Shown: positions 21,201 through 59,860 of the stretch, one piece after another | Layout: every line of letters starts with the position of its first letter | Position numbering within the stretch: the stretch's first letter is position 1 | Assembly (NCBI GenBank): GCA_947568835.1 | Contig: OX387606.1 | Location: forward strand, 9,176,001 to 9,240,000 | Direction: 5' to 3' | Source of the DNA: Protonemura montana | Taxonomy: Eukaryota; Arthropoda; Insecta; Plecoptera; Nemouridae | DNA: 64,000 bases | Notes under the pieces: model-generated | The model's database searches: none | The model's input: the letters and a program-made list of their open reading frames with translations, nothing else | Told to the model about the DNA's origin: nothing | Translations under genes and position numbers: made by a program

Positions 21201-23125
21201 ATCATACAAACCACTGTTTATTAAGCACAGGATTGTAACTATGACTTGTATTTACATACTATAATTAGTTTTATTTGTGTTTGACAATCCCGATGATATT
21301 ACGAAAAACAAAGACATTCACGATTTTAATCTAAGAAGAGGTCAAAACTACCGACAGCCAAGAACGAGACTTAAAATTGCAGAAAATACACCAAAAAGCG
21401 TTGGAGCAATAATTTTAACAAACTACCAGAAAAAATTAAAAGATACAACAAGTACAACATCAAAAGGTCAGTTTTTAAAACAATGACAGAACTGTTTTTA
21501 TTGAACCACGGTTTTATACAATAGACGAATTTGAATCAGCAAGGGATTGTGAATGTGATTGTTGTGTAGCTTTTATCTAGAATTTTAAGACTTAAGAAAT
21601 TTGACTTGTTTCCATGCTCATTTACATTTATCATGTACCAAGAGTGTTCTTTTTTGTCTGTATTTAAAGAAATCGAAATAAAAACATAATTGAATTGAAT
21701 TGAACTTAGCCATGAGCCCCACCACACCCCCGCCACCGCCAGGCTATTCATCAATGCAACATTTCGATAGAGGCTACCGGAAAATTGAAAACACTGCGCG
21801 AGAACGTTATGAGTTATCAATTTACTTACAATGATACATCATATACCCACGGGGCACGGTAACATAAGGAAACAGATTGTAGAAGCTCTTTCAGGCGATC
21901 TCAGAATGTATTCATGGCTACCAAAAGTTAAATCTACTCACGTATCCTTGTTAGTAACGTTTGTTTTTTAAAGTTGGCGACAAAAAAGTGTATTTTATAA
22001 ACATTTCAGTGTAAGAAAATGTGAATTTAATTTGACTCATCTTTGGTCCAGACCGAAGATGACGTCCCTACCAGCGAGACGATCCACTGGGCAGACGGAT
22101 TCCTCCTAGTTTACGCCATCACGGACCGCCGTTCATTCAACTATATCCGCAAAGTCAAACAGTTGCTATGCATTGAGACACCTCTGGCACTCGTCGGCAA
22201 CAAAGGGGATATGGTTCATTTACGACAGGTCAGCACCGAAGAGGGTGAGTCATAATTAAGAGTAGCTTTGAGAGCTTTGTAATAGTTGGAGTTAAGTTAA
22301 GTTAAATAACAGTAGGTATGCTTGTTCAGATGTTGGGTGGGTAACCATAAAGGTAAATAATACAATCTGAAGTGCTGGCGTGTTGTTCGAAATTATCTTT
22401 ATCAAATAGTATATTGCTTGAATATGTTTTGGTTCTGCTATCTGATTTACATAATAATGCTAAAATACTATCAAATGGACAATTCCAGGAGATGGGACTT
22501 TTTAAATTAGTGCAAGTTAATTGTGCTCAATCTATGCCATCAAAAATCAAAACTAGCTAAAAACAAATTTAACTGAGCTTTCAATACCAAAGACTCTTCA
22601 AAACACCGCTTCGTACAATACATTTTGCGTCAGGAGCACGACATGTTTTACATGCCATTCTCTGTACCAATGCGTTTGGTGTCTAGCCAAACCAGTGGCA
22701 TTACTTTACTTGGCATTAAATTAAAATACATTGAATATATAAAATCTTCCTTGAAGCAGCTTAGGCTATGATGTTATAAAAACAAATATTTCGTGCTTAA
22801 TTGAAAAAATTACGCTTTGTGACCGTGCTTAAACAAAACAAGCTGCAACTTCAAAAATAATTTATTGTGTGCTTAGCTGAATTGCGTTTCCCGGTCTTTT
22901 AAAGGTGAGATCCTTGCCAAAGACTACGAGTGCCGATTCAGCGAGGTCGCGGCTGCGGAACAGGTGACGCAAGTGGCGGATGCGTTCCATGAGTTGTGTC
23001 GCGAAGTGCTGAATGTGCGCCGCAAGAACAAGCAGTCGCTGCTCAACCGTATGCTCGGCACGAAAAACACAGGCGCTCGAGCGTACTCGAGGGGGAAAAG
23101 CGATAGTGCGCTTCCCAAAGATTGA
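18249..23125 (+). CDS. Atypical Ras-like small GTPase of the RERG/RERGL branch, five exons
   Basis: This is a 213-aa Ras-superfamily protein. Exons 18249-18345, 20286-20342, 20444-20517, 22052-22244 and 22905-23125 all close in phase. The P-loop GAPAVGKS is at residues 25-32 and the G4 motif NKGD lies in LALVGNKGD. HWADGFLLVYAITDR, RQVSTEEGE and FHELCREVLNVRR resemble human RERG and RERGL. Two key elements are missing: switch I has YDHQAENRY in place of a YDPT-type threonine, and switch II reads DTCPKTEDD in place of DTAGQE, so there is no catalytic glutamine. RERGL shows similar losses. Slow or no GTP hydrolysis is inferred. There is no CAAX box at the C-terminus (SALPKD), so lipid anchoring is unlikely. 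The tail is basic (RRKNKQ). RASL11/12-type relatives are the alternative assignment. Confidence 0.9.
20857..20888. repeat. Perfect 32-bp palindrome
   Basis: Each half is CATATCCAGGCCCATA, and the two halves are exact reverse complements with no spacer. It lies in intron 3 of the RERGL-like gene, about 40 bases from a separate hairpin element. Confidence 0.95.
20925..21090. repeat. Hairpin (MITE-like) element
   Basis: Inverted arms face each other about 100 bases apart: CAGTTTTACCAAAATCTCAA near 20937-20956 and its imperfect complement near 21056-21076 (TTGAAATTTTTGGTAAAACC). No reading frame lies between them. The form fits a non-autonomous inverted-repeat transposon; no target-site duplication could be fixed by eye. 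Confidence 0.55.
21865..21940 (+). repeat. Dispersed repeat family R1, copy 1
   Basis: Core AAACAGATTGTAGAAGCTCT, then GGCGATCTCAGAAT and TGGCTACCAAAAGTTAAATC. Diverged copies with the same order of blocks occur at 44945-45018 and 57684-57756, all on the plus strand. One frame reads RKQIVEALSGDLRMYSWLPK here, so this may be a decayed piece of a coding transposon or a SINE body. Confidence 0.65.
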
Positions 23126-26159: not shown

Positions 26160-26446
26160 AACTAAAAGTTACCCCTAACTAATATCGAATTATGTGACCA
26201 ATCCTTCTTGGTATTTCAGTCTGGAGCAGTCGTGATCTGTTTTGAGCTCAAATCTAGTTCGAAATATTGTCTTTGGTTCAAATGACATCTGCACGTCAAC
26301 CAAAAACACTGTCGATTTGAACGCTATAATGTTTAGTTCACAACCTAGCTACCAGAGTTCACTACAACGCATTTTTCGAATTATAGGTTAAGAGTTCCGC
26401 AGTGGCAAGTGTTTCACGTGTTTTGAAAATTATTTACATCGCAAAA
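26160..26446. promoter_or_regulatory. Shared intergenic region between divergent TFIIE-beta and the 918-aa gene
   Basis: Only 287 bases separate the start codons of two genes transcribed in opposite directions. It must contain both 5' UTRs and both promoters, so a bidirectional promoter is likely. No TATA box is evident. Divergent pairing of housekeeping genes is common in compact animal loci; shared control here is inference. Confidence 0.6.
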
Positions 26447-29400
26447 ATGGATTTTTGTAGAGAGTTCCAATCAGTTGAAACTATATTGAAAATGAAGGAA
26501 AGGCCGGCTGGCAAGGGAAGTCTTCTGAAACAAATAGACCACAAGTTACTGTGTGAGATTATTGAGAAGTTGAAAACATCACTTTTTGAGACTTATAACA
26601 TGGACGAAATTACTCAAAGAAGGGTTACCTTCTTCCTCATCCTTCAAACGGATCTAATTTTAAGCAGAAAACTTGAACTTGTCTCTGAAATAGGTAATTT
26701 GGTAAGAGTTCTTATTAATGGTTCCTTACTAGTTCACATTGTTTGGGGACTAGGTTTTCAAAAGTATTTTTATGAAACTATCTTCTATGGCCCTTCGGCT
26801 CTGGGTGAAGAACTGACGAAGCTTGTTCTCACTGCGAGCCTTAATGTGAAAGACTGTATAATTGCAGCTAGAGATCTGGCCGTAACTATATTTAAAAAAA
26901 TTCGGCAAATGGAGAAATTTGTTGTTGCTGTGGAACAGAATTTCAGGGGAGAGGTATTTAACAAGTATTTTGAACACTTTGCAATTCTTCTTCAATCAAT
27001 TATTATTACTGATGGTGCACTAAAATCCCTTTCAAAAGAAGATGTCACAACCAATCGAGTAAGATTGCAAAGCATTTTGCAATTGACAAGATTATGTTTT
27101 TCTGAACCAGAAATTGTCAATAAGTCTCCAGCAGAATATAATTTTACCTTGACGTATGATTACTCCAACTGGATAAATGCTGGTGATATAACCTTGCTTC
27201 AATTCAAGTGCAAGATAGTTGAATGTTGTACTGTTTGTGTAAAAAATGCAAATATTTCCACCTCATTATGGTGTCAGTGGGTTGAGATTGACTCAGAAGT
27301 TCAGGGAAAATCATTTCAAAGGTTCATTGGAGAAGAAATGTATAATTGTATGCTTGCTTTGGAAAATTCAAGTTTAGCATATGCTGCAGAGTTAATTTCT
27401 ATTTTGAAACTCATGTCAATAAAACCAGAAACCGAAGATGATGAGATAGATCGAGCAGATTTGAAAACAATCATGGAAAATGTATGTGATAAGAGTAAGA
27501 GTCGTAACAAATGGTTGGCAGCACTTCTAAAAGTTGATACCGATGAAGCTTGTTATGAAGAATGTTTGTCTTTGATTGAAAATAATGTACCGATGGGATT
27601 TGATCTTATCCACGAAGTAGTTGATTTTGTAGTTCGTTGTCTAAAAGCTCCAAATGGATCAGATTACAATGATCGATTAAAACAACTAGTTTTAAAGTCT
27701 TTGGAGAGCTTCTCACTACAAGAACAAATAGATGCTTCGAAGAGTTATTTTGAAACCCATGGTGTCACCACCTTGATGAAGACCGAGGATTTTCCTCAAG
27801 TATTCACTGAGGTTTTCAACAAAGCTGTATCAGCATCTGAAAACTTTAAGACAGAAACACAGGTAGGCACAAAGACAGAAACTAATTATGTCTTCACTCT
27901 TATCTAAGCTTTTAAATTAATGTTTGATGCAAAATTGTACTTCTGGTTTGGCAAGGTCCAATTGAAAAATGTTAAAGATCTTAGGGAAGGTAAAAGTGGA
28001 AAGACAGGTAGTGTAGCAAGGACACAATACCCATGTGTGGTTTTGGGCCTTCTTTTCTCTACCCCAGGTAATTTACCTGCATTTTAGCACTCCTACCTTT
28101 TTCTTTAGATTGTACCTATCTGTTTTCAGTTATTTTCTGGGTTTATTAACCTTTTCTGGCAATCCCCGGAAGAACTTCTAATGAAGATGCTGGGAGAAGG
28201 AGTCTCCAATGCCAATCAAACAATTCTCATGTTGAAAGCTTTCGAGATTCTTGGGCCAGTTTGTAACCTGCCTGGAAAGGGCGACAACACAATGAATAAA
28301 GACGCTGGCCTGTTAATACAGACAGTAATTAAGTTTTTTGACAAAATGGAATTAAAAGACCAGGAAGAAGCTAACTTTGTTCAAATGGTAAGTTGCATAG
28401 CAATTTTCATCTGTAAAATAATTATCACATTGGAATTCTTGGCTTTAAATATCTGATAATTAATAACTAATATTTGATTTTTCAGGTATCGTCACTAGTC
28501 AACAATTCTATCATTGACAGAGAAATACTTCTAGAGTTGTGTATTGCTCCAAAGCTTTGTCAGTGCCTCAGAACCCATCACTGGAATATTGCAAGTTTGT
28601 GCTTAAAAATAATTGAAGCAACAATCAAAGACATAGAATTGAAGAAGCTCATTCCCATGGTAGTTGTGCTTTCTCAAGTTATTCATCTAAGCAGATGTGA
28701 ATTATTGAATTTCACGTCAGACAAGTCAGCGGTCTGCGACGAAGCATGCGTTATCATCAAGTCTATTGTGCTGAGACTTCGGAATGGCGGCGAACTCCTT
28801 GAAAAGAAGAGCATAGCATGGATTGAAAATAAAACTTTCAGGCTGGAAGCAATTAACAAGTCCTACTTTAATAAACTTCGACCCAAAAATCGTAATGCCA
28901 CACAAAAGATTTCTGTTGAAGAACTCATAATGATTGGACTGCAGAGCGGTAAAATGAATCTAGATACGCTTGCTGATGCAAAAGAAGGCATCAAAGAAGA
29001 AGATATTTTGTACTGCTTGGTCAAGGTAAATAAAAGATAACCATTAAAGTACAAAACTCAGTAGTGTTGTGTATGTTGTTGCAAGTTTTCAGAATGGAAC
29101 TTCTCTACTTTTCAGATCCTGCCTAAAATGTCATCCCGGGAATGGAAATCTATCATGAGTCTAAAGCCGCTTCTGATTAGGTCGGCAGAGGATGATGGAG
29201 TTTTGAATGTTTTTAACATTCTGGCTGAGACTTTGATGATCATCAACTGTATTGTGAAGTGTCAGTTTACTGATAATCAACATGCATTAGCTTGCATCAG
29301 TTTCTGCATTCGCAATTTTGCCCTTTTTGTGCAGGTAAGTCACGAAAGCAAGAATAAAAAATTGCAGTATAGAACTAAAAATCTATCCTTAAGTGTCACT

Positions 29401-29734
29401 TATATTTCAGGATGAAGTATTGGTCCTACCACCAATGGATTTAGACAAACATTCTGAGGTGTCTGTAAGGAATGTTCAAGCCACAAAATTGAAAGCAGTC
29501 TTTCAGAAAATGTTGCTTCTTCTTGAGAGCTTGCCAGATTTGATCAAAGAGCCTTGCTCGATTTTTTTATTGGCTTTAATGAAACACATTCTGGGCGAAG
29601 TGGTGTTGTTGAAAAGTGTAGGCAAGGATTACTGTTCGGAAGAAACAACGACAGAATTGTGTTCTCTGATTACGTTGTCTTCTATTCGAGATGTCAGAGT
29701 AGCTCTAGCCCAAGTTATTACAGAGGCGTGCTGA
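26447..29734 (+). CDS. Unrecognised helix-rich protein, about 918 aa, five exons
   Basis: I cannot name this protein. Exons 26447-27862, 28130-28387, 28486-29025, 29116-29334 and 29411-29734 join in phase 0 with clean GT-AG introns. The ATG at 26447 has a good context (AAAAATGG) and starts MDFCREFQSVETILKMKERP. The sequence is leucine-rich and almost entirely predicted helix, with repeated amphipathic stretches (FEILGPVCNLP, LLELCIAPKLCQCL, PDLIKEPCSIFLLALM), which suggests a HEAT or armadillo-type solenoid. No catalytic motif, membrane segment or signal peptide is seen. Glomulin, neurochondrin and BRAT1 were considered from memory, and none matched convincingly. A 60-nt, stop-free, GT-AG-bounded segment inside exon 1 (26694-26753) could be an intron; without it the protein would be 898 aa. 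The C-terminus is ALAQVITEAC. The first exon is unusually long for this window. Confidence 0.85.
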
Positions 29735-30515: not shown

Positions 30516-33500
30516 TTAGGATGCTTGGTTCTTAGTGAAACTCAGGGCTGATCGCAGTTTCTTGCGAACACGAGGGGAGGTCCACTTGTTTGCGATTCCA
30601 AGCAATGGTCTCAGCTGATTAGAGGAAACACCTTCATCAACGTCATCTGCTTCTGTCTTGATTTCCATTTTCTAACCCAGTGAAATCAACACTTAGTATG
30701 AGTAATTGACAAATATTATCATAGGTAATTATTATTATTTTTTTTTTATACTTAATAATTAATGGAGCAAGGGTCTCAGATGTATTTTTGATATAAATTA
30801 TTTTGGAACTATTTTCTATCTGCTCCAGATGTATTTTTCTTGTACACTTGTTCTAGGCACATACCTGCACAATCAGCCTTAGTAGCATACTTTGTGAATC
30901 TAATGCCACTGTTATCTCTTTTAACCTCCTCTTCTGCTTTCCTAGCTCTTCAGATACATAATCTTCAGAATTGTCCAAGACAACATCCAGTCCTAGAATA
31001 GAAAATGTGGATATTTATCTTTTCTGGAGACTTTTGGTACAGCAAAGTACATTCTATTGTTGTGTGTTGCTATACCATCATCAGTGAATGGATTCCAGAA
31101 CCATTTGCGGAGTACAGCATCTAAGAAACCAAGCTTGCACTTGACATCGTTTGGATATTCAATCAACTCCATTTTGTCCACCTTTTCGAGCAATACCTGT
31201 GGCAGTTTTCGTTCAAGCTCGGTGTGAAGTACCACCTACACAAATACAGATGTTTTTAAATAATTCACTACACTTGCCAATCCAATATGTTTTAAAAAAA
31301 AATTTGCATCTGCCTTTTTTAATTGGCCAAATTGGTTGAGATTGAATAGCTTACATCTGGTCATTCTGTTTAAAGGTCGAGCAAAAAATATCAAAACAAA
31401 TTTTCTAATTACAAGCCAAATTGAAAAATGGGCATTGCCCATGTACTCCAAATACTTGGCAGGAAAGGGTGTAAACTGGATCTATTAGTATTACATATCA
31501 ATGAACTGAAATATTGTCCTGGTAAATCCAAGACCCAGTGCAACCCTAGCGGAATTCGAGTGTTATGTACCTGCATAGCCAGACGCTTAAGTTGTGCATT
31601 CCTTCGAACAGACTCTATGTCTCCAACGGCCAAACCGATAAGCAAGTTCATCAGCAGGATCGGCATCAGTACCATGAATATTCCAAGAATTAGGAAAGCA
31701 GGAACGGGAAAGGGAAGTGATTTTGCAGATTTTCCTTCCTCCTTTTCTAGATAGAACGGTTGCACGTACGTTCCTAAGAAATCAATCTCTCCCAACATCA
31801 TGGCAAATGTTCGCATCAAAGACATTGGAACCGTTCCAAATGACAAATGGTTTCCCTGAAAAGAAATAAAACATTTTCTTTGTCTCTTCATATAATCTCA
31901 GCATGTAACATTAAATAAATATATTTTTCTGCTCACCCCAGATAGCAGAATGTAGAATGCCAGTCCAAAAGCAATTATCAGGATTGAAAAGACAATCAAC
32001 ACTTTGATAAGTGTCTGCAGTATTTCCAGAAACATGACAACATAAATTCCGACTTGATCAAATCTGAAACGGAACATTTTCGTGATTAAATTTGGCCATC
32101 AACTGTTTCTGGAGAAAAAAAAAGTGTAATTGTTGATCCAATCCAACCGTTGAAGGTAGAGGAGCAAGTTGAACCAGCTGAGAAACACGGCTAGCGACGC
32201 AGAAGATAGTTGCATCGAATGGAATTTGCCGCAGAAAACGGGAACGATCATGATAGTTGCCGAGATGTAAAGGAGCCAGGAGATGAGGTTGGCAGGGTCG
32301 AGAAGATAATGCCAACGCTGCTGATACAGCTGAAGAAGCTCGCGCATTGCATTCACTCCAATGTATGAGATGATCACCACAGCACTGGTAAACATCGCAG
32401 GTGTCGAGTGGTATTCCTCGGAATCCTGGAATCAAGAAAATGTAAGACATTTAACATTTTCTATCAACTTAGAGTTCTTCCTTTTTGTTTTCAACATTAA
32501 TCTTTAAGTAACCTCGTTTGGTTGTCGATCTGTTTTATTTTGAACGCTTTCCTTCGAGTTCCAACAACTGGTGTTTCTATCTTGCAATAATTGCGAAAAG
32601 TGGTCTTGGTGTACTTTGGTTTCAATTAGCTGTGCTGAGAAGAAGGTGACAAATGCAAGAAATATGCTGTAGAAGAGCAGATTTGCAAGGTGAAAGTATT
32701 TGCCATAAGAATTCCACTTCATCTGCAAATACTTTTGGCTCAATGGATGTGCCAGTAGCTCCACTCGATTGTGTGCTACCATTGCCTGAAAGAGAACGTT
32801 TTTTAATAATTTTGTACAGTTTAAAAAACAGTATTTTTCTAGATGCTTCTTACAAAATTATCTGTGCATGCAAACAATCATCCCTAATATAATGGCTACA
32901 TTTTTTCTTGTATATGCACAAGAAGTATACTTACAATTGTTGGTTTGGAGCTAACATTCATAAAAGTTAAAATTTTGCAGCATGCAGGATAAGCATTGAG
33001 TAACATGGAACGGTAGAGAATTAACAAAAAGTTGCATTTGTTGGAAGCACTTACGTTTACCACCAGTAACGGAGGAGGTCTCCAGTTGGCATCATCTAAT
33101 ATTTTCCGTTGGTTCGTCACCTTCTCCGGAGAGTATTGGTAGTTTGTAAACGAATACTTTATCTGTATGCAACCACAACAAAAAAGATAATACTATACCT
33201 TTTTGAAAAAAAAATACCATGGTGAATCACGGTTTGGTGATTGGCTTATGTGCATGTAATTAAAAAGCGTTTTTAAAGTTTCCAAGAAACAAAAAGAAAA
33301 CAAACGAAAGAAACATCAAACAGACAAAGCAGCACGCAAAGCTTTCTGATTCACATTTTCAACATATCCCACTTGTGACAAAGGAGGAGAAAGTAGGTAT
33401 TTCATGCAATGAACAAAACACAATAAGTATTGCTCAACCAAAATTACCAATACTGACGTTAACGAGCACAACTTACATTCAATGCCGGGAGAGGAATTGG

Positions 33501-36500
33501 CTTGGAAATGAGTAAGGCTTCTCCTGTCTTCTCGTCCATCTGGGCGTACATTGCGGGGCATTGGAGACATCGGAAGCTGTACTTGATCTGCAGGAGGTAA
33601 CGTGGCTTTTCAACGTGGATATTTCCGAGATGGATGCATGTGATTTACGTGTTGGGATTGTTACGTTTTTGGAAGATATTTATTTGTAAAGAATCAAAAA
33701 AATATTCTACTTTTTAAAAATAGAAGAAGGTTATTGTAATTGAAAGAAAAACAAATTGTGATTGCAAGCAATAAATAAAAAGTGCTATGCCGAGGCAGAT
33801 GTGAGTTTCAATATAAGTTTGGTAAAAATTGATTATGGGGAAGTTATGCCTAAGTTATTTCTTCATCATAATTAATTCCGCTACAATTAACGCAATAGTT
33901 AAAACATTCCAGGGTGTTCCACACATTCAAACTCCTCCTTCCATCATTGCGTGCCACTTTTCACACTATTAAACAAAACGAAACAATTCACTTACGTAGA
34001 ATGATTTGGAATCCTTCTTGCAGTTAGCTTTGGTTATGCACTTATCCTGAACAGCTTCGAACACTCGAGGCATCGAGGCAATGAGTGCCAATGTAACGCA
34101 AGGATGTTTGTCGGACTTGAGGCTCATCACCTCTTGTGCCCGTTCCTCGTGAGTAACCATTGCAAGCGCCGCCTCCGGGAACTTGTAGTAGATTGCGTAG
34201 TCAATTGCACTCATATCCATGTAGTTATACAAGAGCTTGCACTCCATCGATAGGAGTAGAACGATAGCGTTTGGTTTGTTGTCCATAGTGGCTAGGTGTA
34301 GTGCAGTGTTCTGTGAACATCGAAAAAGATTTGTTCAAGAATGAAGAGCATAAATGACAGCTGTTGTATCATACTGAGCAAGTACACCCATAATTGGTTT
34401 TATGAAGGTGCTCTTTATGGAACTGATAAAGTAAACCCCATGATAGTGGATTATCTAGATTTTAGACACATAGCTGGCTGGTCCCAGCTATCCAGCGGTT
34501 TGAATGTTGTATAAAGAATAAAATAAATATTTTTTATAGAGAAAATGTGAAGGTGAAAAAAAGTAACATTCGAGAGATGGTCTTTGTTCGAGAGGTTTGT
34601 GGGCGCGGCTGCTAAGGAAAATTCAAACTATTTTTTTCGAGCGAACTACACACTTGGGGGGAGGGGATGTTTTGCTAACAACCTTCCACCATGACTTCCT
34701 TCCACTGACAATGTTTCCATCCCTTAAGAAGATGTACCACAACCAAATTTGCTGTCTTGGCTTGGCCTATGGTCCATGCCTAAGTATCGAAATCCATAAT
34801 GACCACTGCGGCATTTGCTCGCTCATATTCTCGGACGGTTCTGAACTTTCTTAGCTTCACCATAGCTTCTAAATCAGAGGAAACTCTAAAGCAGGAAAAC
34901 AGTTAACAGAAAGAGTAGGTTTCAATAAGTGGACAAATAGTACGGTACGGTTCAGCAGAGCTTCAGTGCTACCATGCTATTGACAAATCAGATACCAAGC
35001 TATTAGTTCTCTTCCTAAAACGGCCGCCTCCTCTCATTCTCAAGAGTAGATTCCAAAAACGCTTACCCCATCTTTGTCAACTTGGTCGAGCAAATGTGAA
35101 TGCACTGAATGAAGTAGCTCCATTGTTTGGGTAAACCCGCTCATTGCCGCGAGGTGCAAGGGCGTGCGCCCGTTGTGGTCTCGGTGCAGTAAGGCGCCCC
35201 TATTCAGCAATAGTTGCACTACACGCGTGTGCCCTTGTTTGGAGGCGATGTGCAGGGGGGTCAAACCCTCCCCGTCGCTCTCGTTAATGATGAAAGTTCC
35301 TTTCTCCGAGTCGAGGAGTTGACGAACTGTGTTGTATCGTCCGTATCTGGAAGATAATTTCGGGGTTTATGGTTGTGTAATTTGATCGTAGCGTAGTATA
35401 CCGTGATTTTCTACAATCTATCGCCTCGCCTACACTTCAAGTCAAATGATTCCTAGACCAACCGATTGCCGTCTCTTTTCTCTTCAAATTACCTGCCAGT
35501 GTCAGCGATTAAATCAGCTAAAAGCTAGTTGTGACCTACATTTTTCATTCATTGAAGTGTAATTAATTTTCGAACGGTACGTTCAGTGGATTTTAACACG
35601 TCAAACATTTAATCTCTTGTCGACTTATACCAGACATAATTTCCATCAAGGCAGAAAGTATGAATGGATGAGAAAATTTTGTTGCTGTACATAAACCTGT
35701 AAATTGATTGCTACAAACTTTCATGCCGATCTGTGATGTAAAAAATAAAATCTTGATAGAAATGCCACTGTCATTGGCTTAGAAACTTCACTTTGAACAT
35801 AGGTGTGCGCAAAGCTAATTACGATAGGATCATTTAAAAACTAGAACGATGGAGTGTACACGTTTGATTTGATTTGTGGTGTTTAGCGACGCACTGTGAC
35901 TTGACAACTGGCCCTGTGGCACTACAACAATAAACTTCTTATTCAAGAATTCCGGTGGCGTCAAATAGCCTACAGCGTCCACAAGGCCATACTGTTGAAA
36001 GGTTGATTAGCATTAGGAAAGTGAGGTTGTACCAAATTCGATCCCTCAAACCTCTCTAGAACAGAACTGGTCATGAGTGGTCTACCATTCAATAACTGAC
36101 CTAGAGCAGTGTCGCTTAACTAAACCGTTCGATGAGACCACATTCTACGGATGTCTCGTTAAGCAATGTTGCTACCAAAGAGTTTGTTTTTATTATGTCG
36201 AAAAATAACTGCCATTCCAATGTCGCAAAATGTAAACAAAGTATTCCAGCATTGGGTTTACAAAACCTAAATAGTATCAACCTAATTCTAGCCTTGCTAG
36301 CCCAAGGGTGCATTTTTGTTGCTTAGCCGGTTCAGTCCAGCTGATACCTTTCAGTGTGCGGTCAACCGGCGAACTGCAAGGTTTATATCGATATATTTCA
36401 GTGAGTTTGAAATCCAGCAGTTTCTTTACCTGCATGCTTAATTGGACGTAATCATACAATTCAATCATTTTACAAGTGACAAGTGATTTTTAAAGACACT

Positions 36501-42500: not shown

Positions 42501-45500
42501 GATTTTGCTCTGCAGAATCGGTGTGGACACTGGCATATCATTTTCGGCCAATTCTATGCAAATGCTAGTATGGATGGTAGTGTATGGAAAAGTTATTTGT
42601 CATCGGAAAGATGTTTTAACTCAGTCCCGTCATTGATGTATACTGGGCAATTGGGACAATTGGGACTTGCAATAGCGGTATTATATAATAATAGCGGTAT
42701 AGCAATAGCGGTATATATTTCTATAAATGCTGAGTTGGATAGTTGGAGTTGGATGTTGGTTTTTGGATATTATGGGTCCACAACTTTTCCGTGAATCTAA
42801 GAAAAAGACAGTACAAAAAATAACTCGTGAGCTTTTGTTGTCATCTAAGCGTTCGATCTTGAATTTTCTACGCGTTAAACGTGTCCAGTGCCGCAGGGGC
42901 AGTTGTCAAAAAGTGCGTCGTTAAACACATTGTTAAACGCCCCATTGTCGGCTTCCCATCTGCTGCGTTGCTCTATGGGCTTCAGCGAAGTCAGCCCGTG
43001 CATAAATGTGGGGATACTTACACTTGGAGGAGGTAGTCGACGACGTCCAGGGCGTCGTTCTCGACGGCGACGTGCAGCGGTGTGTTGCCCACGTGGTCGC
43101 GGATGTTCAGGTCTGGTGCACACATCGGGGTGTTAGTCGGGTAACGGCACGAGAATACTAAATCAGGCTTTCGAGAAGCATTGATAGCGTGGAAGTAGGA
43201 CGCGGGTTGACTAACAAGTTAGCATCTTTTGCGTTGGGTTCATTTTATTTACAATTTTTAAGCAAAAACCGGCTTTTTTTAAAATAGGAAAGATTTCTGG
43301 GCCAATGAAAGTCAAATCTTTAATCTATGCGTCACAAATTTTTTTTTTATCGTAAGTAAATGGGCCTAAATTGTTGTTGTAGTTGCAACTTGCAGGTAGG
43401 GAGGAGGGGGCCATTAACTCTTTGATATCATCCCACGCTCTCCATTAGGTCATCCATTAGGTAAGCTAAAATTTTGTCGAGAAATTGTTTAGAATCGATC
43501 CGGTAGGCGGTGGCCAATGGTAATTTTTCCCGAAAGTAAAATATAATCCCGGAATCATCCAGGTCATCGCGTTGTAATGAAAAATATTTACATTGACGCG
43601 AACGCGACGTTTATTCTTTGTGTCTACACGAGTTTAACGAAACTGAGTGCAACGAAACTGCAACGGGAATACATGGCTGTAGTACGCTGTCTGATGGCAT
43701 GCAATTTTGATTTTCACTCGTGTATTTTTGAGCCCTGGATGCAGTCTCAGGGCAGCATCGTAAAACTGTGGCTCTGTGTTGTCCGAGTCTGGGACTTTAC
43801 CCGTTCAGGGTTGATCCGTAATCTTGACCGCAACGTACTGGTGCTTAGGGGGCTTTATTTGAGTGCAATCTGCTGCCAAGGTGGGAGACGTGTGTTGCCC
43901 TGGATCTTCTGGATGCTGCACGTGTTGAGATGTGGAGATGAACATGTAGAAGCTGGACTTTTTATTAATGAGCGCAGCGAGCGGAGTGAGCGAAGTGAAA
44001 TGTTCAGTTTCAATTACCCAAGAACAAAATCGATTGTGTGTTTGTTTTTTCGCATTTTTGTTCGCACCATAGCGGTCAAACGCCGGCTCCGAGTAAAACG
44101 ACATTTTTAGAGCACATTTTTGTGTTCTTAGCTTAGACACCTTGCGTTTTTCAGTAAAATTGGTCAAACAGTTTTGAAACTGTACAGAATGTACGACAAT
44201 TTTCAGATTTTGTATACACGTTTTGGAGCTGTACCACCGAAAGTGTTTGGTATTTTTTCACCAAACTTTTCAAAAATTTGATATACATCAAAATAAGATA
44301 TTTGCAAAGTTTTTGAGCCCGAATGTGTTTTCTTTCTCTTTTTGTTCGCAAACTTCCGACTTTTTTTGGTGGATTTGGCGTCTCTGGATCTGTACAATGA
44401 ATTGGCTTCACATTTTATCATCCAAAAGTATAGCTACGCCCATCTCACAACGCAACTCAATTTGCAACACAAATTTACTAGAGAAGCCCTCTTAAAAGCT
44501 ACGGTTTTTTTTTTTGTCCGACGGTCATGAACTGTGACATTGCGGATTGTGAATCTGCTTGAAGGCTGATAAAGAAATCTCATCAAAGAGACTAGAGAAG
44601 TAATAAGTTTGACAGCGAGAAAGGTTTCGTGAGAAAGGAAGCGGATATTGTTAGAGGATATAATCACCTTTCAGGGGAAAACTCATGTGGGCAGGATCGC
44701 CATAAAAATGCCGAGAGAAACTATATGTACTTAAAAAATAAAATATCACACCGAAGTGTTCACGTTGTTACTGCGATGTTGAAAAATGCAATGATTCGTA
44801 GGATGATGTGGTGAAACAGGCTTTGAGGAAGACAAAGAAATAAACAATAGGAATGGTGGTTATGCGATCTTTTTCTATAAAATGCGAGATGAGCTTTCCA
44901 CCGTGCTGATTGTATTACACCAGCGGAAGAATACCAGCGGTTACGTGAGAAAGCAGATTGAAAAAGCTCTGTCATATGATCTCAACATCGCTATGGCTAC
45001 CAAAAATTGAATCTACCATGGTATCTTCTCTGCTTTTTTTTTTCAAAGCTGGCAACGAGAAAGATAGTCTTAAAAAATTTTCGGAACCACTTGCCGTCCC
45101 AATTCATTTGCGAATATCGTTTTTAGTCAATCGCGTTCTAAAAAAAAATACAGCTATGGAGATCTAATCTGTTCACTTACTATAACTCGTATTATAAAAC
45201 GGAAACATTTAAGAAAAAGGTTCACAAGATCCAGGCCATACACCTGGATATTTAAAATTTTAGTAACCTGTAAATGCAATTTGACATTTGTTTGAACATT
45301 TTTTATATGTCCCGTTTGTTTGTTGTTAACCTCGCTCTAAACACGACACTGTGTGCGGTAAATCTTCAAAACCTGGTCAATGATCGGTCATATTCAATCA
45401 ACAGGTCTAAGAAGAAAATTTGAGTAAGTGCAAAGGATGCAAATATAGGTACCTTACTGTGATATTTTGCGAGTATCAACATGTGGGTTTTCTACTCACC

Positions 45501-48500
45501 CCCTTGGTGTGCGTGTATGAACTGCACAATGTTGAGTCTGTTTCGCGCAGCGGCCTGATGGGCAGCCGCCCTGCCCCGTGAGTCGCGCACCCCTAGACGT
45601 GATGGTTCGGCCAGGTACAGTCTGGCAAAGTCCTCGAGGTTGCCGCTCTCCGCAGACTATACACGAGTAACCCACACTGTTGTTAGTAACTTTGAAACAT
45701 GATTAGCTTCATGACCTTGGTGTCATATACTCACTTGACAGCACACAAAATGGCCGCTAAATGATCAATTTACCGACAAAAGTGGAGGGTGCTACCAGGC
45801 TATACCGTCGTTTCGAGAGTTAACGGCCTTGTACCCAGATGCAATGTATAAGGGAACATAAGAGCCTCTCAACATAAATGCATTTGTTGCGGATTGTTTT
45901 GGTTTGAAGCATGCACGTCAAGCTGGATTAGTGGGTTTCCCAAAGATCTTATCGCCGACCAAAAATAAAATGAGTCGTTTTTGGAATTTTTACATTTTTC
46001 ATGAAGCCAATTGATTGATCTTCTTACACAGATAAACATAGAAGTTCGCTAAAAACTGAGGGATAAAAAATGGACCGTACAGAGACGATCGAAGTTCGCC
46101 AAGGTTGTCAAGAAACCGCTCAGCCGGCCGAGCTTCTTTCGTTATCACCACAGACACATGCATCCAAAATATAACATATCTCGACTTGGCGACCGAGATT
46201 TCCGGATGGTGTTCGATTTCCAGCCTTTATTGGTTTTATGGGATAAATATAATTACTGACGTTACTTCCAAATCACTGTCACTAGGTTACTGAAATTCGG
46301 ACCTCAATCCTAAGCCCTGTGTGTATTTAGCAGTTTCCGCGAAGAAAAGAAACATTGCAGAGGGTGACGGAAATAATACCTGGGAACAGCCCTTTTGCTC
46401 AGAATGACTTCATTTCTACATAACAACCCAAAGAAAGGTGTTGAGAATGTTGTGTACAAAATTAGTTTTTATAACTCTAGTCATGACTGTTACTAAAATG
46501 TAACAGTCCGTACTTCGAAAAACTTCGAAAAACTTCGATAAACTGCGTTTATCTAAGTGAGATTTTGCTTAAAATTAATTCTAGAGAATTCCTATTCTGC
46601 AAATGTTGTTAACTTTCAGATTATACCAAAAAAACTGGACATTTGTGTGTACATCCTTATACACAATTTCATTTCGCTATTTCTCGCAGATTACTAGAAT
46701 TTTAGACTGGTTTATTTTAAATGAATCTTCATTAATGCTAACTTCATCGATAGATGTATCGATATTTGTGGTCGTAATTATTTAACTGTAAAGGTTTATT
46801 AAAAATGATGGCCGCCAGCACTATCGCCACGTGTTGTCGACTCGTTTGCTCAGCAGAAAAATTAACACTAACGCTGGTCCTCTGACTTCACCTATTATCT
46901 CAATGATTTTAATTGGGAAATCAAAAAAGAAATCTGCTAAAAAGAATTCTTAAATATAATTGAAATTCCCACACGCAAAAGAAAATACTCGCAGCTTTGA
47001 AATTGGAGATCTGCGACGAACTCTTAAAAATGCAATGGTGACAAAAGAATTAAAGTTTACTATGTTGGTGATTTAGAATCAGTGTTTACGCTTGCAAACT
47101 GTAGTTACAAACTGCACTTTTCTCTTGCGGTGCAGTTCAGTAGCAACATAAATGTAAATCGATTGTCCTGGAATGCTTAGTGTGGGTTCTTGGCCCGTAA
47201 CACACACATTTGGGCTGTCTTTTTTTTTGGGCTCACAGAGCCTTCCAGAAAATGCCACCGTGAAAGAGCTTTGTGTGTGGAATTAATATGTTTTTGACTG
47301 ATTAGAAGTCGATATATTTTGGGGGAAAATTCTAGTTCGATCAAGATCGACTATCTTGTGACAATAATGTAAGTAATAAAAAGAGGATCTATTTCTATTA
47401 GATTGCCACGGAACTGTCCTATAAAAGTCAAACTGTGAAGATGGAGGTAACCTCTTGTGTTTTTTATACTCTAAAGGAAATCGAGCTCCCATTGATTGTC
47501 AGTAGACAAAAAATGCTCTCAGGATTAGAAACTCAACTAATTGTTAAAACCTATTTACGTTCAAGTTCACATTGAGTTGACACAATAAGCCGCTCTTTGC
47601 AAACCAATTACAACCGCTCGTGCAGCGATGCAAAGTGATTTCACATTTTCCTAACAGCTTTACAATTTTCTTTTGTAATAACGGATCGCCTAGAGTGACA
47701 TAAAGCTTTTCCGTTCTATTTCCTGTGCCTTGAGTAATAATAAATATGCTAAACATAAAGTTTCGTCTCATTATCCGCAACTAGTTGCTCGGTCATTGAA
47801 ATGAGACATCCTGACGATGTTGCAGTAATTCAGCAGCCATGACGACAGTTGAACGATGGAAATTATAATTTCATCTGTTGCGTCGTCTAATAATATTTAG
47901 CGGGACGATTCGTTTTCACGCGAATTATATCTGAATTATAACAACAACAACAACAAAAGAAATCAGCACGAAAACACACACATAATTAATTTGATGACTT
48001 TGTATTTATATAAGCATAGGTTTCACTGTGGTTTCATATTATTCTGCAAACAATATTTTTTCGAAATTGTATATGCTTTTTTCGTGGTGTTTTTTAATTG
48101 TTTCACGCGATTGTTATTGTGAGATTGTCAATTTTTACTTTTCTTTGGTTTCCTTGTCCTTGTTTGTTTGTGCGGCACTACCCACAGTCAAGCCTTTTGG
48201 CTTTGTGGGCTCAAAAAAAAAGAAAGCTTGTAATTGTGTGACTGAGAAAAAAATGTAATGTAACTAAAAAAAGTTATGCGCAATAGCCGCTCAGCTGACT
48301 TAAACAAAAATATATATTTATACATAATTTATACATTTATACATTTCAAATCCCCACAATGCGGAGAGAGAACCATCTTCTTATTACTGCAAGTATCAAT
48401 CTCAATGGACAGCAAAATCTGAAATTTTTTCGAAGCTGGACGGACTGTATTATTCGGGGCATTGTTCTCGGAAATGTTGGGTTAATCATTATTTATTTTA

Positions 48501-51500
48501 GTTCTGTGTTTACCATAGATGCTGCTGGAAACCACCAAACTTCGAAGTTGTTGACTAATATATATAAAAAAATTTAAAACTACGAAGTTGTTCAGCATGA
48601 AAGTTATGATCCATTATTGATTGATTGCTTTAAACGTGATATCTAACTACGCACTGTCTTCACAACTGACCCGTATAGCGTTTGCAAAAAGAGGGTTATA
48701 ATAAGGTACGGTAGGTGAAGAAACCCGATGCTGGCAAATAGCGTATTTCTGTCGAATTGCGAATAACGATACTTGAATAATTCCTTCAGAAATAGATGCT
48801 ATGGAAACGTGGAAAAGCAAGAGAAGGGAAGTGTATATAAAATTAAATCCTTCCAACATCTCTCCTGAACGCACTGAACATGAGTATAATGGTAACCCAT
48901 TTAACACCAGACCCAACGCAGTGATGCTTAACTTCGGTGATCTCACGAGAATCAAAGTTAATACCAAAATCCAAAATCAATGTTTTGAAGTTTAGAGGAG
49001 GTCACCGTGCAAGTTAGCGTCGAATATTGTTTATCCAAACAACTTCTCACTTGAGTGGGTTTTGGCTAGCAACAATAGAAATGGATCCGGTGTTCAAAGA
49101 CGTATCAAAGTAGACGCTAATAATTCTACCTTTTAAACATTCATTGGCGTTATCGAATGTGTTAACAGCAAATCTGAAACGATGGCTCTTTGATGGGAGT
49201 TCTCTTTTACCTCCCACAGGTCGTAAAGCATCGTCATGCCAAATTAAGTGTTCTAGTGGTGTTGGGTTTGTAATTATATACTATTACACTCAGGTAGTCT
49301 TCCTCATTACTGTTACCTGTTTAATTAATCGTCTAGAAAATGATTAAGAGTTTTATTGAATGTATCGAATGTGTAAACGAAGCAGAATGTTGAATCTTCT
49401 ATAATTTCTAGGAAATTAATAAACTTTTAATTGAGTAACTCTAGACGAGCTAATAAAGTATACACAAGAGTAGGGGGGGGGGGGGGGGGGTTCAAAGAGC
49501 ACCTGCAGAAACCCTGAACTGAAACCTAGTACTGAAAAATCTGAAAAAATAAACTGCTCAGGCGGTGATTACCTTGAATATTGCGCCTTCTTTCTGATAA
49601 ATAGATGAATTATATATTATGTACATGCATTTTTAATTGGAATGTGAAATTTCACAAAACAATTTTGATGGATTTTCCAGACGTAAAACACTTGATTTAA
49701 ATTTAAAACTTGAATGTTCGACAATGCTCGTAAATTATTACTCATCGGGAGAAAACTTCCGGCGCGCAAACTTGTACTTTTCTTTGTTTTCTATTTATTT
49801 TTTTTTATTTGTGTTAATATTATGCAATTAGAGTAAACAAAGGATTGCTGTAATTTGTTCTCGTTTACTTAAATTTGCTAACGTGAAACAAGTTAAATTA
49901 TTCGGTAGAACCAAAATGAATTAAACTTTTTGTTGACTGCATCAACGTGAATAATACTTCAGATACATGCATTCAATGTATGTCCCTTGCATTAATTATA
50001 TTACTTGTGTATTTCGATGCTCACGAAATAGAGCTTGTACCACGTTTGAGGTACACCTAGGCGTTCTCTATTGGATGCTGTCACACGAATTCATGATTCC
50101 ATGATTCCAGATTCAGAGCCTGCACATGCATAACGATTACTGTCTTGATATTCATAAGCAGTTCAGAGTCACCGTCGACAAACATGATCACGTTTCACAA
50201 ATATTCTGTTAATCCGCTCATTTGATGTCGATCAAAGCAGACAAATCAAAATGAACACAAAGTAGAATCACGTCCCTGAGCTTTTACAACCCGGCACCTC
50301 CACTGTAACACAGAATGCAGTCATAAATCGGGCACACAGATCACGTAAAACCGGTGTATTTTTACATTTTTTGAAATTAACTTCTTTATTCTTGGTCCCA
50401 TTCCTCTTTATCATGGCTTGGCGTTCTTTTAGCAAGTCTGAATTTGCATACAGGGTAAGCTTTAAACCTGGCAAAGTTTTCTTGTTTCAACCCCTGTGGT
50501 TTATAACGATCTTCACAACAGCTAACGTGATCGAACCAAACTGTTATAATTTAAACTTCATATTTAAAATTTATAATGTTTAATGTTTCTGCATTATCAA
50601 CTAAAACATTGAACTAGTTATTTGACATGTCAAATTTTCATTACCTGGATCAACTCCTCCGCAGATAGCTTCTTCGGGAATTGGAAACCCAAGAATACTT
50701 TTTTCCACTTTTTCGACATGTCTATGTTGTAAATGAAAACAAAATTCCTTTCACAATCAAATATCTGTTCAAACGTTTAGCATTTGTCCACACTTCCTGT
50801 ATAAAATGCAAATAGATCAATTAGCGAAAGCTACACTGGAGCGACGAAGTTCTAAGAGCGTCGCGACGTCCATCCCATTTGGTACTACCCGACGTCTGGC
50901 GTCGTCCAAGCGTACGGGGCGACGTCGACGCAAACGCGTCGTCTGACTATAACTAGAGATGGACGCTTGGAATGACGAGTGCAGCGACGTAAATGGAACA
51001 ATCAGTAGCTCCTGTGATTGAGGACTGGCATCGGCAGGAGCGGGCTATTTATTCTTATATAAGTTCGAGCTCGAGTAGCGATGCGGGTTTCTTTGATAAT
51101 TATGAATGGTCGATTATTACTTTCTTAGAGCTTCTAGAAATCTATCTGGAAATTTTGTCTGCTGCATTGCTCCCCTGGGGGATCTGGATTATTAGCTTGC
51201 ACAATCCATTAAGAATGCAGGTAAATTAAGTGCAATTTTGTTGCATGCAATAGTTTTGTGAAACATGACAGTTGAATTCCCATAAACGGGGCAAATATGT
51301 CATTTTCTAATTTTGTTAATCGATGAAAAAGGGGAATCTGTCATAAATCCAACCAGTAATTAATGTGGTTTGTGTTTTATTTCATTTCTATCTCGGTGTT
51401 GAAGGACTTCTTGAGTTTTTTTCCTTTCAACACCATGTTCCAACCTTTTTTCACTTCAGTACAAAAGTTTTGAAAATGGCGAGAAGGCGGCTACCTTTTA

Positions 51501-54500
51501 TTTTAACACTTAAAACATGCACGTTAATATGATGTCCACATTGTACTTTTTTATCGAAAATTTTCTGAATTTTATCAGAAAATAAAATACGAAATGTGGA
51601 ACGATCTCTGTAGATTTTTTCGATTGAATTCTAGATATGTTAACGAAATCACTGAAACGACTTTGTGTTAAGCGCAGTGTGATCTTTCTAGTGCCAGCCG
51701 TAGACTAGTTAACTAGGAAAAGAGATTTTCCTTGCCGAGAAGACACAGACAAGCGTTCACGATGGTGGCTAGTTTCCGACTGCCTCCTGATTTTCCTAAC
51801 ACCACGACTGGTTGCTGTTTCTCACACATTTTCTTCAACGTGCTGCCGGGCTATAGATTTCAGCGATGTAAGTGATTCAATAAATATGTGTCAACCAATA
51901 AATTAAACGACGTAAAACGAGTTAGGAGGCGTGTTTTTGTATCCCAGTAATTGCAAAGTAAATATTTCGGAAAGCTAATTACTCCCTCTCGTTACATCAA
52001 AGACACTCTGTAAAACGTGACTCTCCATGGAATTGTTGTTCTGGAACAGTCAATCGGCAACGGCAAGACGAGTGATTGTTTTTCAGAAAAATAATTTAAG
52101 TGCGTGATAGATACCTGGAACTTTTTAACAAAAAATGTATACCCAAACGGTTTGGCTTGTTTGAAACACCGGCTTTTATGAGATCACCGAAGTTAAGCAA
52201 CTCTACGCTAAGTCAGATATTGAATGGGTGGCCATCATACACATGACCAGTTCTGTTGGGAAAGAGGTTGGAGGGATAAAAGTTAATATAACAACTTCGT
52301 TCCTCTTGCTTATCAACCTCTTGACGGCATGGATTTGTGGAGGAATCCTGCTGTCCTTTGGAAGGCACGTTCAGCCGGTGGTCCTCTTGGTGCTATTCGA
52401 CAGGAGTAAGCTACGTACCGTCACAGGGTTTCTCCTCCTTCCTTTTAGCTAGGTGAGGTTAATTATCATCCTCATCATCGTCCACTCATTCACCGATGCC
52501 AATAAACCAGTTTCACATGCCTCGTTGTCAAAACAGTGCGTCGTAAAACATAACTAGTCATTCATCAAAAATATATGTAATATTGATTATCTTGTGAGCA
52601 TCAGAAACGTTTTATTAACCTATTAGCATTGCTCCTGGGGGAAAACATTTTTCTCGTCTTGTTTTTAATCGTTTTTTTTTCTTTTTGGTCCAATTCGACA
52701 TGCACTGACCTTGTTATGAAGCACGCAAAATATATTGCAATTGCTAAATCGAACCGTTAGCATGTAAGACGATATTAATCTCGACTTAATACGGAAACCA
52801 AGACGGAATTTTTGCAGTGGAGCGCCAGCTATTTCGACTCGCTTTTCCAACTTGGCGCTCGCAGCGACGCTTTCCCAGGGTTCGATGGTACCGAAATCTA
52901 TCGAGTATTCGCTGCACTTTCTTAGTAGCTTAGTTGCTCGTCGCTTGGAAGCTTGCTTGTCGCTTGGACTTCATTTGCGCACACATTTCACTCGCATTTT
53001 TGGGCAGAAAAAGATAAAAATGTGAGTGAATTATCAGAATTAGATGAACATACTTTAATTCCCCGGTTGCATCAAATTCTGTAATCCTAAACTGAGCTTC
53101 CAACACAAACACCTCTGAGTCTCATTGCATTTGATTAGATGTCGCCACAGTAATTTGTACAACTCCCACTTAAAGAAGTAGTGAAACCAACCCACAGTCT
53201 CAGAACAACCAGACTTACTATTTTTTTATTTTTTTATAAAATTTTAATGTCATTGTTCTTTAGTATCAACAAATAGCCAAAATAGAGAGTCACCTCCTAC
53301 CTTTTATGTAATAACACATATTTTTAAATGGTTTAAACCCATATGAAGACCCCTCTGAGTTGACTTAGCATATTTACGATCCTTCCTTTCTCTAGCCATT
53401 ATTTTATTTTTATTTTTTTAAGTGGAAAAATGACTAGTGGTCATATTTTTTTGTATTGCAAACAATAGCAGGCGCTGCGATATTAAATACGTAACATGAT
53501 GGGTGTTTTTCGTGAGCTAGAGGTTGATAAAGTGAATTGGTGTGTTATGTATCACTGAGTTTATAAGTATAGTCAGAGGGCCAGCGTTAATGTTAAGAGT
53601 TCTGCTGAGCGAACGGGCACATGTGAACGGGTACCATGTGCTGGCAGCACATGGTAATAGCAAGTGCTATTCGATGGCGCTTGCGGCCAGTAAAAAAAAC
53701 TTACAAGTAAATAATTAAAGGTGAAAATATCGATACTTGTATGTCAATCGTTGAGGTAAGCATGAATAATTATTAAGAGAGCCTAAACCAGTCTAAAATT
53801 CCAGTCATCTGCGAGAAAAAATAAAAAACAAACTTAACGATGGAGAAGTCATTTGGCGACATAACCCATAAAATAAATGCTAAAAAATGAGCAAAGAAGC
53901 CCACAATGGTAGATAAGACTATATTTGCAGCAAGCCAGAGTCAATGTCTCAGGAAAATCGGCAAGCAAAATAAGAACCAAGAATTTTCGCACACAACTCC
54001 TTTACTTACCCTCAAGATTCGAAACGGACTCTGTATCAGCAAGCAGACCTCGCCTTTGTTTCTTTCTTGCTCTTCCTTGACACCGGGCGAGAGTGGTGTG
54101 TGCGACATACAGAACCTGGCCCTGCGCTGCTCCAGAGGCAACGAGGTCATTGTGGGCAGCATCGAGTGCAGCTCCGATGTGTTGACGTGGCCGTCGATGC
54201 AATCCGACATTACCCTGCCCTTGCGGGGCTGACGACGCATTATGCTCATCACCCGGTTCTGAATTGGAATGGGAATCACATCTTAGTTCTGGATTGAAAA
54301 TACAAATGCTTTTTCGCGTTACACTTTCGTTCTCTAACCAGTTCCCTATTATGGTTCCCTATGTATGTATACTGAGTTAAGGTATCTTAACATGGAATAT
54401 TCAGTTTTTTTTTAGGAGACCACCTGAACAATTTTAATAGATAGTGAGTACTACGTAACGTTCTAGATTCGATTGTCGGAAGAGACCCTTTTTAGAATAC

Positions 54501-55924: not shown

Positions 55925-56641
55925 CGCGTCACGCCGCTCGGCGGGAACTGAACAAAAAGGGTTGACAAGGGCGCAAGAGGACAAGGGACGCTGACAAACT
56001 ATTGTGGGCATAACAGAATGTTCATAACTGTACAATATTTAGTTAAAGCGTTGGATAATTATAGATTTTACTGAACGTTGTATTTGTCTTTCGCAGAACA
56101 ATGAATTGTCTTAATTGATTGATTGTGTTTTAGGAAGTAATTTATTACCTGCTTCCCGGGACACTTAAGCCAATGAAATACCCATATCAAGCAATCATCA
56201 ACGCCTACTTCAGAGCAATTCTTCTACGAAGCTACCCTCCGATCTCAAATATTGACACAGCTAATACTAAATGGCGTAAAGGCCTTATCTTACACCGATG
56301 TTCAAAGAAAAATCTATAGAAAAAGTTAGACGTGAAATAATCGCGCATGATCTTGTGCAATATTGGCAGCCCCCGAAGATAAGAGATTAGGTACTCAAGA
56401 GAAGAGCATGTCAATGTTATGTAACAACACTCACAACCATCAATAGAAAATCCTTTGGGAAAATATCACGTTCCATGCTATCTCATCTTTCAGTCTACCT
56501 TGTAGCACGAATCTATTACTTAGGATGATTATGTTGCAAATAATATCGGTTACGTGGTTACGTCACTACCGCTAGTGTGATTGTCTATACATCTATATGC
56601 TTTAGATTATTTAACAATGCTTTGTGAAAAGCATAGCTTAA

Positions 56642-56790
56642 TTTTTTTATTATGAACACTAATTACCTCTCAAGGATCGGTGACCAACCGGGGACTCAAA
56701 TCCCGATGTTTACCTGTCGCGGGTGTTGCTCTAACCATTTGGGCTAACTGAAAATTGACTTTTTGAGATGATTTTAGTGCGTTTCATGAG
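56642..56790 (-). repeat. Foldback element with tRNA-like core, copy 2
   Basis: Outer arms (TATGAACACTAATTACCTCT and the opposed TTTTTGAGATGATTTTAGTG) are a diverged version of copy 1. The interior is longer, and on the minus strand holds an A box (TAGCCCAAATGG, 56746-56735) followed by TTAGAGCAACACC and a B box (GGGATTTGAGTCCCC, 56704-56690), the spacing of a tRNA. This is a tRNA-derived short element, not an intact tRNA. Confidence 0.75.
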
Positions 56791-57683
56791 AATGACAGAT
56801 TTCCGAGGAGTAGAACCATGAGGCTGTGAATTCTTACAGTCACTCAGGTTTCAGTGACGCTATACTGCGTCACATCCGTTAAATCTTGAATCATGTCTTA
56901 AGAAACATTTTATGCTGTGAAGGTTTAACCAATATCCTCAAATGAAAAATAAAAAAATCAGTACATATATTTTTGTTACCTCAATTTGAAAGTTAACCGA
57001 ATAATAAATAAATTAAATTAGTTGTAGAGTAGAAACTCGTATTTTCTAGTACTTTAAAAGCGTCGTATTTTATACTAGTCACTCATATTTAACTCCTTTC
57101 TGTCGTGTTTTCGGTAACGATGCTTTACCTTCGAACATTTCCCGCTCAAGTTTCTATTTGTTACTCCGAAAGTCGGGAAGAAAAGTTTTCAACCTCTTTG
57201 AGACGGTTGGCCTGTTTTACACAATAAGTTGATGGTATCTGACAAGGAAAACAAGGCATTTGTATCGCTAGGCGGACACAACCAAGCAAACAATCACCAG
57301 CAAAACCTCCCAAATTACACTTTAATGACTTTTTTTAGACTAACCTAACCGAACCCACACGCAAAGTTTTTACCGTTCTTGACGAGGTTTGATGACTTTG
57401 GTTCGAAAGATAACTTTATTCTTTCGTGTACTTTGTACTTCCACAATGGAAGATTTTTTTGTGGTAATGGGTGGGTGGGGACACGGGGAACGTTATCATT
57501 CGGAAAGAGATATGCCATGTTTAGCCATCTGCCAGCACTCCACTGGACAATATTGATGATGCAATTATGTGAAATCGAACATTTCATCACTGTCTTTGTT
57601 CTTCTAATTTGGCACGACTTGGTCGATTCCGAATTCTAAGTTACCAGCTATACTAGTTAACATTAAAATTGAAGCTCTACCCA

Positions 57684-57756
57684 CGTTAAAGAAAGCTGAT
57701 GTTAAAAGCTTTGTCAGACGATCTCAGCATCTCCTGGCTATCAGAAGTTGGATCTG
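57684..57756 (+). repeat. Dispersed repeat family R1, copy 3
   Basis: GCTTTGTCAGACGATCTCAG, then CATCTCCTGGCTATCAGAAG and TTGGATCTGC, matching copies 1 and 2. One frame reads RKLMLKALSDDLSISWLSEV, the best-preserved coding-like version of the family. Confidence 0.65.
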
Positions 57757-59584: not shown

Positions 59585-59860
59585 CAGAAACCCGCAGATT
59601 CAGCAGCTGGTCGCGTGTATGATGGCGCGGAGAATGTTGACCGTGGTGGAGAGCTGTGGTCGACGACAACGCCCGCCAAGTGTGACTATGCAATGTGTAC
59701 TGGCGTCGGCGTCGCGACGCTACAAGTGGTCGAATGCTGGACGATCGGGCGGCATCGCAGCTCTGCCGTACTATGTATGCTTACCAGTAACCATCGATTG
59801 CTACACGTGCCCGTCGTAGTGCTATCAGTTAATTGGCTGATGGATGTCGATGTGAGGAAA
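59585..59860 (-). other. Putative non-coding first exon and promoter of TRPA1
   Basis: A GC- and CG-rich block in AT-rich surroundings. On the minus strand it ends in a good donor (TTTCTG/GTAAGC, cut after 59585). Joined to the acceptor at 55947, its open frame (HHTRDQLLNLRVS) continues in phase into VPAERRDAMSSLPEE, but it has no in-frame ATG. The exon is therefore best read as 5' UTR, with translation starting at the ATG at 55924. The right-hand boundary is unknown. This is inference from composition and splice phase. Confidence 0.4.

Follow-up and report, generated by a model that had tools for sequence, protein, structure and literature searches.

The TRPA1 gene of Protonemura montana contains two adjacent small exons, here called A and B, which very probably represent the conserved exon10a/exon10b pair of insect TRPA1. 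On the evidence of orthologues, one of the two would enter each transcript, exchanging the A-loop of the channel and changing its gating in an agonist-dependent manner. The gene lies on the minus strand of a 64,000-nucleotide (nt) stretch of assembly GCA_947568835.1 (contig OX387606.1, positions 9,176,001 to 9,240,000 of the forward strand), which is referred to as the window and whose numbering is used throughout unless a contig is named. The gene, the exons, their splice sites and phases, the cysteine positions and the single copy were directly observed. The exon pair is real and had been correctly described in an earlier interpretation made from the letters of the window alone (the sequence-only reading). 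Flies and mosquitoes have already shown both this kind of pair and its function.

The TRPA1 gene and its exon pair

By homology, the minus-strand gene is the single TRPA1 orthologue of an insect, as the sequence-only reading had named it. It combines a long ankyrin-repeat N-terminus, a six-transmembrane Ion_trans domain (match at C4:9207595-9208065) and a best match to TRPA1 of nearly full length: in a PDB search, the B form matched Drosophila TRPA1-A (7ykr, chain residues 115-1196) with 1735 bits, and the second-ranking TRPA1 chain was 7or0, which we take to be human TRPA1, with 667 bits. Seventeen exons were placed by GT-AG borders, 16 of which join in each form (A or B) into one open frame of 1075 (A form) or 1074 residues (B form) followed by a stop codon. 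The genome (258 Mb, 34 contigs) was searched in six frames with a query of 391 amino acids (aa) running from exon B to the TRP region, which yielded 19 matches, six of them in the TRPA1 gene described here (81-99% identity) and the remaining 13 elsewhere (27-37% identity). Exon B was covered by only one of the 19 matches, and TRPA1 and exon B are single-copy at the sensitivity of that search.

Exon A (33587-33477, minus strand; exon10a type) is 111 nt long and encodes the 37-aa segment IKYSFRCLQCPAMYAQMDEKTGEALLISKPIPLPALN, with the acceptor ctcctgcag and the donor gtaagt. Exon B (33162-33055, minus strand; exon10b type by place and length) is 108 nt long and encodes the 36-aa segment IKYSFTNYQYSPEKVTNQRKILDDANWRPPPLLVVN, with the acceptor tgcatacag and the same donor, gtaagt. 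Both exons are in phase 0-0 and open with IKYSF. When the coordinates and GT-AG sites were re-read, these properties and the flanking borders at 33996 (donor gtaagt) and 32785 (acceptor ttcag) were found to be as the sequence-only reading had given them, and the translations agree with it in placing RCLQC in exon A and no cysteine in exon B.

Good splice sites and an open frame are in themselves no proof of such a pair: of the 68 phase-0 segments of 90-132 nt that run from AG to GTRAG on the window's minus strand, 21 are open. What places the pair beyond chance is the IKYSF start shared through changed codons, the score of the A-B alignment, the match of exon A to the fly protein and the exact agreement with published sizes. 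Four of the five IKYSF codons differ between the two exons, and one serine has switched codon class. The A-B alignment score of 25, which was reached by none of 1000 shuffles of B (maximum 7), stems from IKYSF, the rest of the exons adding nothing net. The comparison with other TRPA1 genes proposed in the sequence-only reading was obtained for exon A, which aligns without gaps to residues 685-721 of 7ykr (E = 1.1e-10). The pair has exactly the sizes (37/36 aa, 111/108 nt) of Drosophila exon10a/10b and Aedes TRPA1A/TRPA1B; together with its place, they agree with the alternative exons known from insect TRPA1, as had been supposed.

Outside IKYSF and a final Asn, exons A and B have little in common, which is what favours regarding exon B as a copy of exon A that has decayed or is seldom used. 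We consider this extremely improbable, because exon B has an open frame, consensus splice sites and synonymous changes in IKYSF, and because its length and lack of cysteine are exactly those of the functional fly exon, the length being also that of the Aedes exon. A third alternative exon hidden in the flanking introns was likewise considered and rejected. Three introns were scanned for phase-0 segments of 60-179 nt from AG to GT with donors GTAA, GTGA, GTAT or GTTA; the A-B intron held two overlapping open segments, neither with an IKYSF-like start, and the two other flanking introns held no open phase-0 segment.

Known counterparts in other species

The Drosophila melanogaster TrpA1 exons 10a and 10b (exons 12 and 13 in another numbering) resemble the present pair in their position between the ankyrin repeats and S1, in their lengths and in having the cysteine (C694) in one exon only; they encode 37 and 36 aa, and a cysteine that matters for electrophile sensitivity is missing from exon10b (PMC4699737). 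The fly pair is called mutually exclusive, exon 1a being used with both exon10a and exon10b and exon 1b seldom with exon10b, and other insect sequences align with the pair region (PMC11471635). In Aedes aegypti, the middle exons of TRPA1A and TRPA1B, which can be likened to the present pair by length and place only, are 111 and 108 nt long, and the transcripts swap one exon for the other (PMC6934445). The same organization is reported for exon6a/exon6b of Anopheles gambiae TrpA1, a likeness by description (PMC11471635).

In human TRPA1, the A-loop around C665 reads YLQCP, compared with CLQCP in exon A. We know of no second exon at the C665 site of the human gene. Four TRPA1 variants are reportedly described in a study of the plant bug Apolygus lucorum, in which the pair may have been dealt with already for an insect outside Diptera. 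A mouse TRPA1 splice variant is mentioned (PMC11471635), and in Pieris rapae splice variants are named for Pyx, TRPgamma and TRPM and none for TRPA1 in the passages covered (PMC7143563).

Cysteines of the variable and common exons

In the ungapped alignment with 7ykr, the second cysteine of RCLQC in exon A falls on Drosophila C694, which equals human C665, as C650 equals human C621 (PMC10073219). Exon B carries Tyr at this position, and the C694/C665 counterpart is therefore present in exon A and absent from exon B. The claim of the sequence-only reading that exon B removes the counterpart of the human cysteine is thus borne out, and it agrees with the fly, in which isoforms A and D retain exon 10a with C694 and isoforms B and C lack it (PMC8541009). 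Fly isoform C has Lys at position 694 (PMC10073219), in contrast to the Tyr of exon B.

The counterpart of C650/C621 (in the motif HPC) is encoded by the common exon 34310-33996, and the cysteine of GCSPLHYA, encoded by the common exon 37006-36828, aligns with residue 445 of 7ykr. Adding the 35-residue offset deduced from C694/C729, the latter would be C480 of fly isoforms C and D, which corresponds to mouse C415 (PMC10771277). With the C650 and C480 counterparts residing in common exons, the B form would keep two cysteines implicated elsewhere in electrophile sensing; the N-methyl maleimide response is retained in fly C650S (PMC10073219).

The sole unusual detail of the pair is a CxxC motif (CLQC, minus strand, 33558-33569) in exon A. 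Its first position, three residues before the C694 counterpart, is Phe in Drosophila 7ykr and Tyr in human TRPA1. It is doubtful that an A-loop cysteine pair, redox-active or metal-binding, is here swapped for none, by which the A form of an insect outside Diptera would gain a reversible disulphide (oxidant) sensor.

Functions of the two forms

We infer from the orthologues that P. montana splices and uses the pair as they do. Each transcript would take exon A or exon B, the pair encoding the A-loop region, situated between the ankyrin repeats and S1. Exon A would furnish an A-loop that contains the human C665 counterpart, and exon B another segment, of 36 aa, that lacks it. Both kinds of channel would stay electrophile receptors because of the other reactive cysteines in the common exons, and the swap would do more than take away a sensor cysteine: depending on the agonist, it would shift the sensitivity and the speed of gating. 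In the fly and Anopheles, the B-type form is the more sensitive for several agonists.

The 50% effective concentration (EC50) of N-methyl maleimide in Anopheles is 12.7 µM for the form without the cysteine versus 43.8 and 39.5 µM, and the EC50s in the fly are similar (13.6 and 16.3 µM for the exon10a forms and 14.1 µM for the exon10b form; PMC11471635). The cysteine-less fly form is faster and more sensitive to hypochlorite and to the non-covalent agonist citronellal, from which the authors concluded that reactivity is not the cause (PMC4699737). Fly C694S and C694K retain responses to N-methyl maleimide and heat, those of C694K being larger (PMC10073219). In drosophilids, the cysteine-less (C-type) form is more sensitive at low doses of allyl isothiocyanate (preprint PMC12132172). 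It has also been proposed that the pair region determines how heat-sensitive the Drosophila channel is (cited in PMC11471635 and PMC6934445).

The sequence-only reading had expected the exon B isoform to differ in its response to reactive irritants or heat. The altered response stands, insofar as the two forms of the orthologues differ for several agonists; a loss of electrophile sensing is unsupported, given the N-methyl maleimide data and the C694S and C694K mutants. It is accordingly unlikely that the swap works by removing a reactive cysteine and leaves the B form blind or weak to electrophiles. That explanation draws on C665 being a key site of human TRPA1 (PMC10073219) and on the C729S mutation, at the residue of isoform D that corresponds to C694, which reduces the response to 2-methyl-2-thiazoline almost to background, isoform D responding more strongly than C (PMC10771277). 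However, the C480S mutation, in a common exon, has the same effect in isoforms C and D, and isoform C, which lacks C694, still answers 2-methyl-2-thiazoline and needs C480 to do so (PMC10771277). Moreover, in Anopheles, and in the fly at low doses, N-methyl maleimide finds the B-type form the more sensitive one (PMC11471635); C694S and C694K remain responsive; and here common exons encode the C480 and C650 counterparts.

Evidence against the assignment and exclusive use of the exons

The reading of A and B as an exon10a/exon10b pair with agonist-dependent functions has to be weighed against a number of contrary points, which concern exon B, the splicing and the agonists. A PDB search with exon B up to E = 10 was without a match, the insect TRPA1 chain found there (7ykr/7yks) carrying the other exon, and the likeness of exon B to the published exon10b is one of place, length and start only. 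Searches for relatives of the exon following the pair gave 220 pattern matches in a genomic contig collection and 24 in a viral contig collection, none of which was confirmed in either.

As to splicing, all four inclusion patterns (A, B, both, or neither) keep the frame open, and as double inclusion (219 nt) and double skipping are among them, the frame enforces no exclusion. The intron separating A and B (33163..33476, minus strand, 314 nt) is too long for exclusion by crowding, given the usual minimum size of introns. Competing pairing of introns was considered as a mechanism and gained no clear support, the energies being not clearly beyond those of 200 dinucleotide shuffles: the observed duplex energy was reached in 21 of them for the intron pair e7-A/A-B, in 13 for A-B/B-e9 and in 195 for e7-A/B-e9. 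Given the open frames, the 314-nt intron and the unclear pairing, exclusion must come from regulation invisible in the sequence, and mutual exclusion in P. montana TRPA1 is suggested by orthology. The same features would be compatible with exons that are not exclusive, many transcripts carrying both or neither: the frame is kept in every combination, the intron lets double inclusion through and the pairing is no clear bar to it. Such use is very unlikely all the same, because the orthologous Drosophila exons are described as mutually exclusive (PMC11471635) and the Aedes transcripts contain one exon in place of the other (PMC6934445).

The published agonist results on the two forms conflict. 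The greater sensitivity of the fly exon10b form to N-methyl maleimide is confined to low doses, 1-10 µM (PMC11471635), and at high doses of allyl isothiocyanate the D-type response exceeds that of the C-type (preprint PMC12132172), as the response of fly isoform D to 2-methyl-2-thiazoline exceeds that of C (PMC10771277). Menthol sensitivity is similar for isoforms C and D, and the citronellal effect is credited to the N-terminus, not to exon 10 (PMC8541009). Heat responses are equal for both Aedes forms (PMC6934445), and the four fly isoforms are said in a structural paper to respond similarly to electrophiles (PMC10073219).

Gene structure and genomic surroundings

The common exons, all on the minus strand, were placed by joining of the frame and by alignment with 7ykr. 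The upstream ankyrin-repeat exons are 43112-43022, 41380-41185, 38614-38405, 37837-37601, 37509-37309, 37006-36828 and 35346-35067, and the last ankyrin repeats are encoded by exon 34310-33996, which precedes the pair and ends in TAC before its donor gtaagt. The exon following the pair (32785-32513, acceptor ttcag) encodes the pre-S1 region and S1, and the downstream exons 32425-32148, 32063-31937, 31855-31571, 31235-31076, 30992-30865 and 30671-30516 encode S2 to the C-terminus, with the stop codon TAA at 30516. A candidate further exon (SAESGNLEDFARLYLAEPSRLGVRDSRGRAAAHQAAARNRLNIVQFIHAHQG; 45500..45656, minus strand), whose borders were set by eye and which lies outside the joined model, is presumably an N-terminal TRPA1 exon, as judged by its resemblance to insect TRPA1. 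A motif scan of the minus frames of 45651-64000 for alternative first exons (fly exon 1a/1b) gave one match, which was judged by eye to be unrelated.

The 13 remote matches, which concern the TRPA1 pore region, are located at C3:15634210, C3:3383931, C2:25512378, C4:5016476, C2:24677033, C2:2547371, C11:1114584, C16:9931004, C3:2888189, C15:10454873, C5:7068966, C5:7546173 and C1:23000568 (contig:position). Eleven of them lie in open frames of at least 336 aa, and they may belong to an expanded group of other TRPA-type channels, many of them intron-poor.

A plus-strand gene with long open frames (26387-29734) lies tail to tail with TRPA1; a 487-aa stretch of it (26444-27907) had no Pfam match at E = 0.01. 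Other neighbours are pieces of a gene for the TFIIE beta subunit (minus strand, 23965-23639 and 24442-24110), with one winged-helix match above its cut-off and core and tether matches below theirs, and a Ras-family exon (plus strand, 22031-22255). TTAGG repeats are abundant in the genome (6912 forward and 6102 reverse overlapping 30-mers; control, 0), and among the places listed are telomere-type repeats well inside contig C1, e.g. at 916562 and 16524876-16526433. Diptera are not known to have TTAGG telomeres, and the repeats point to an insect that is probably no fly.

Significance

The lost cysteine should not be read as lost electrophile sensing. With this pair, a splice choice that is already known and has been tested functionally in a receptor for irritants and heat reaches a further insect, probably one outside Diptera; if so, the choice would predate the flies.

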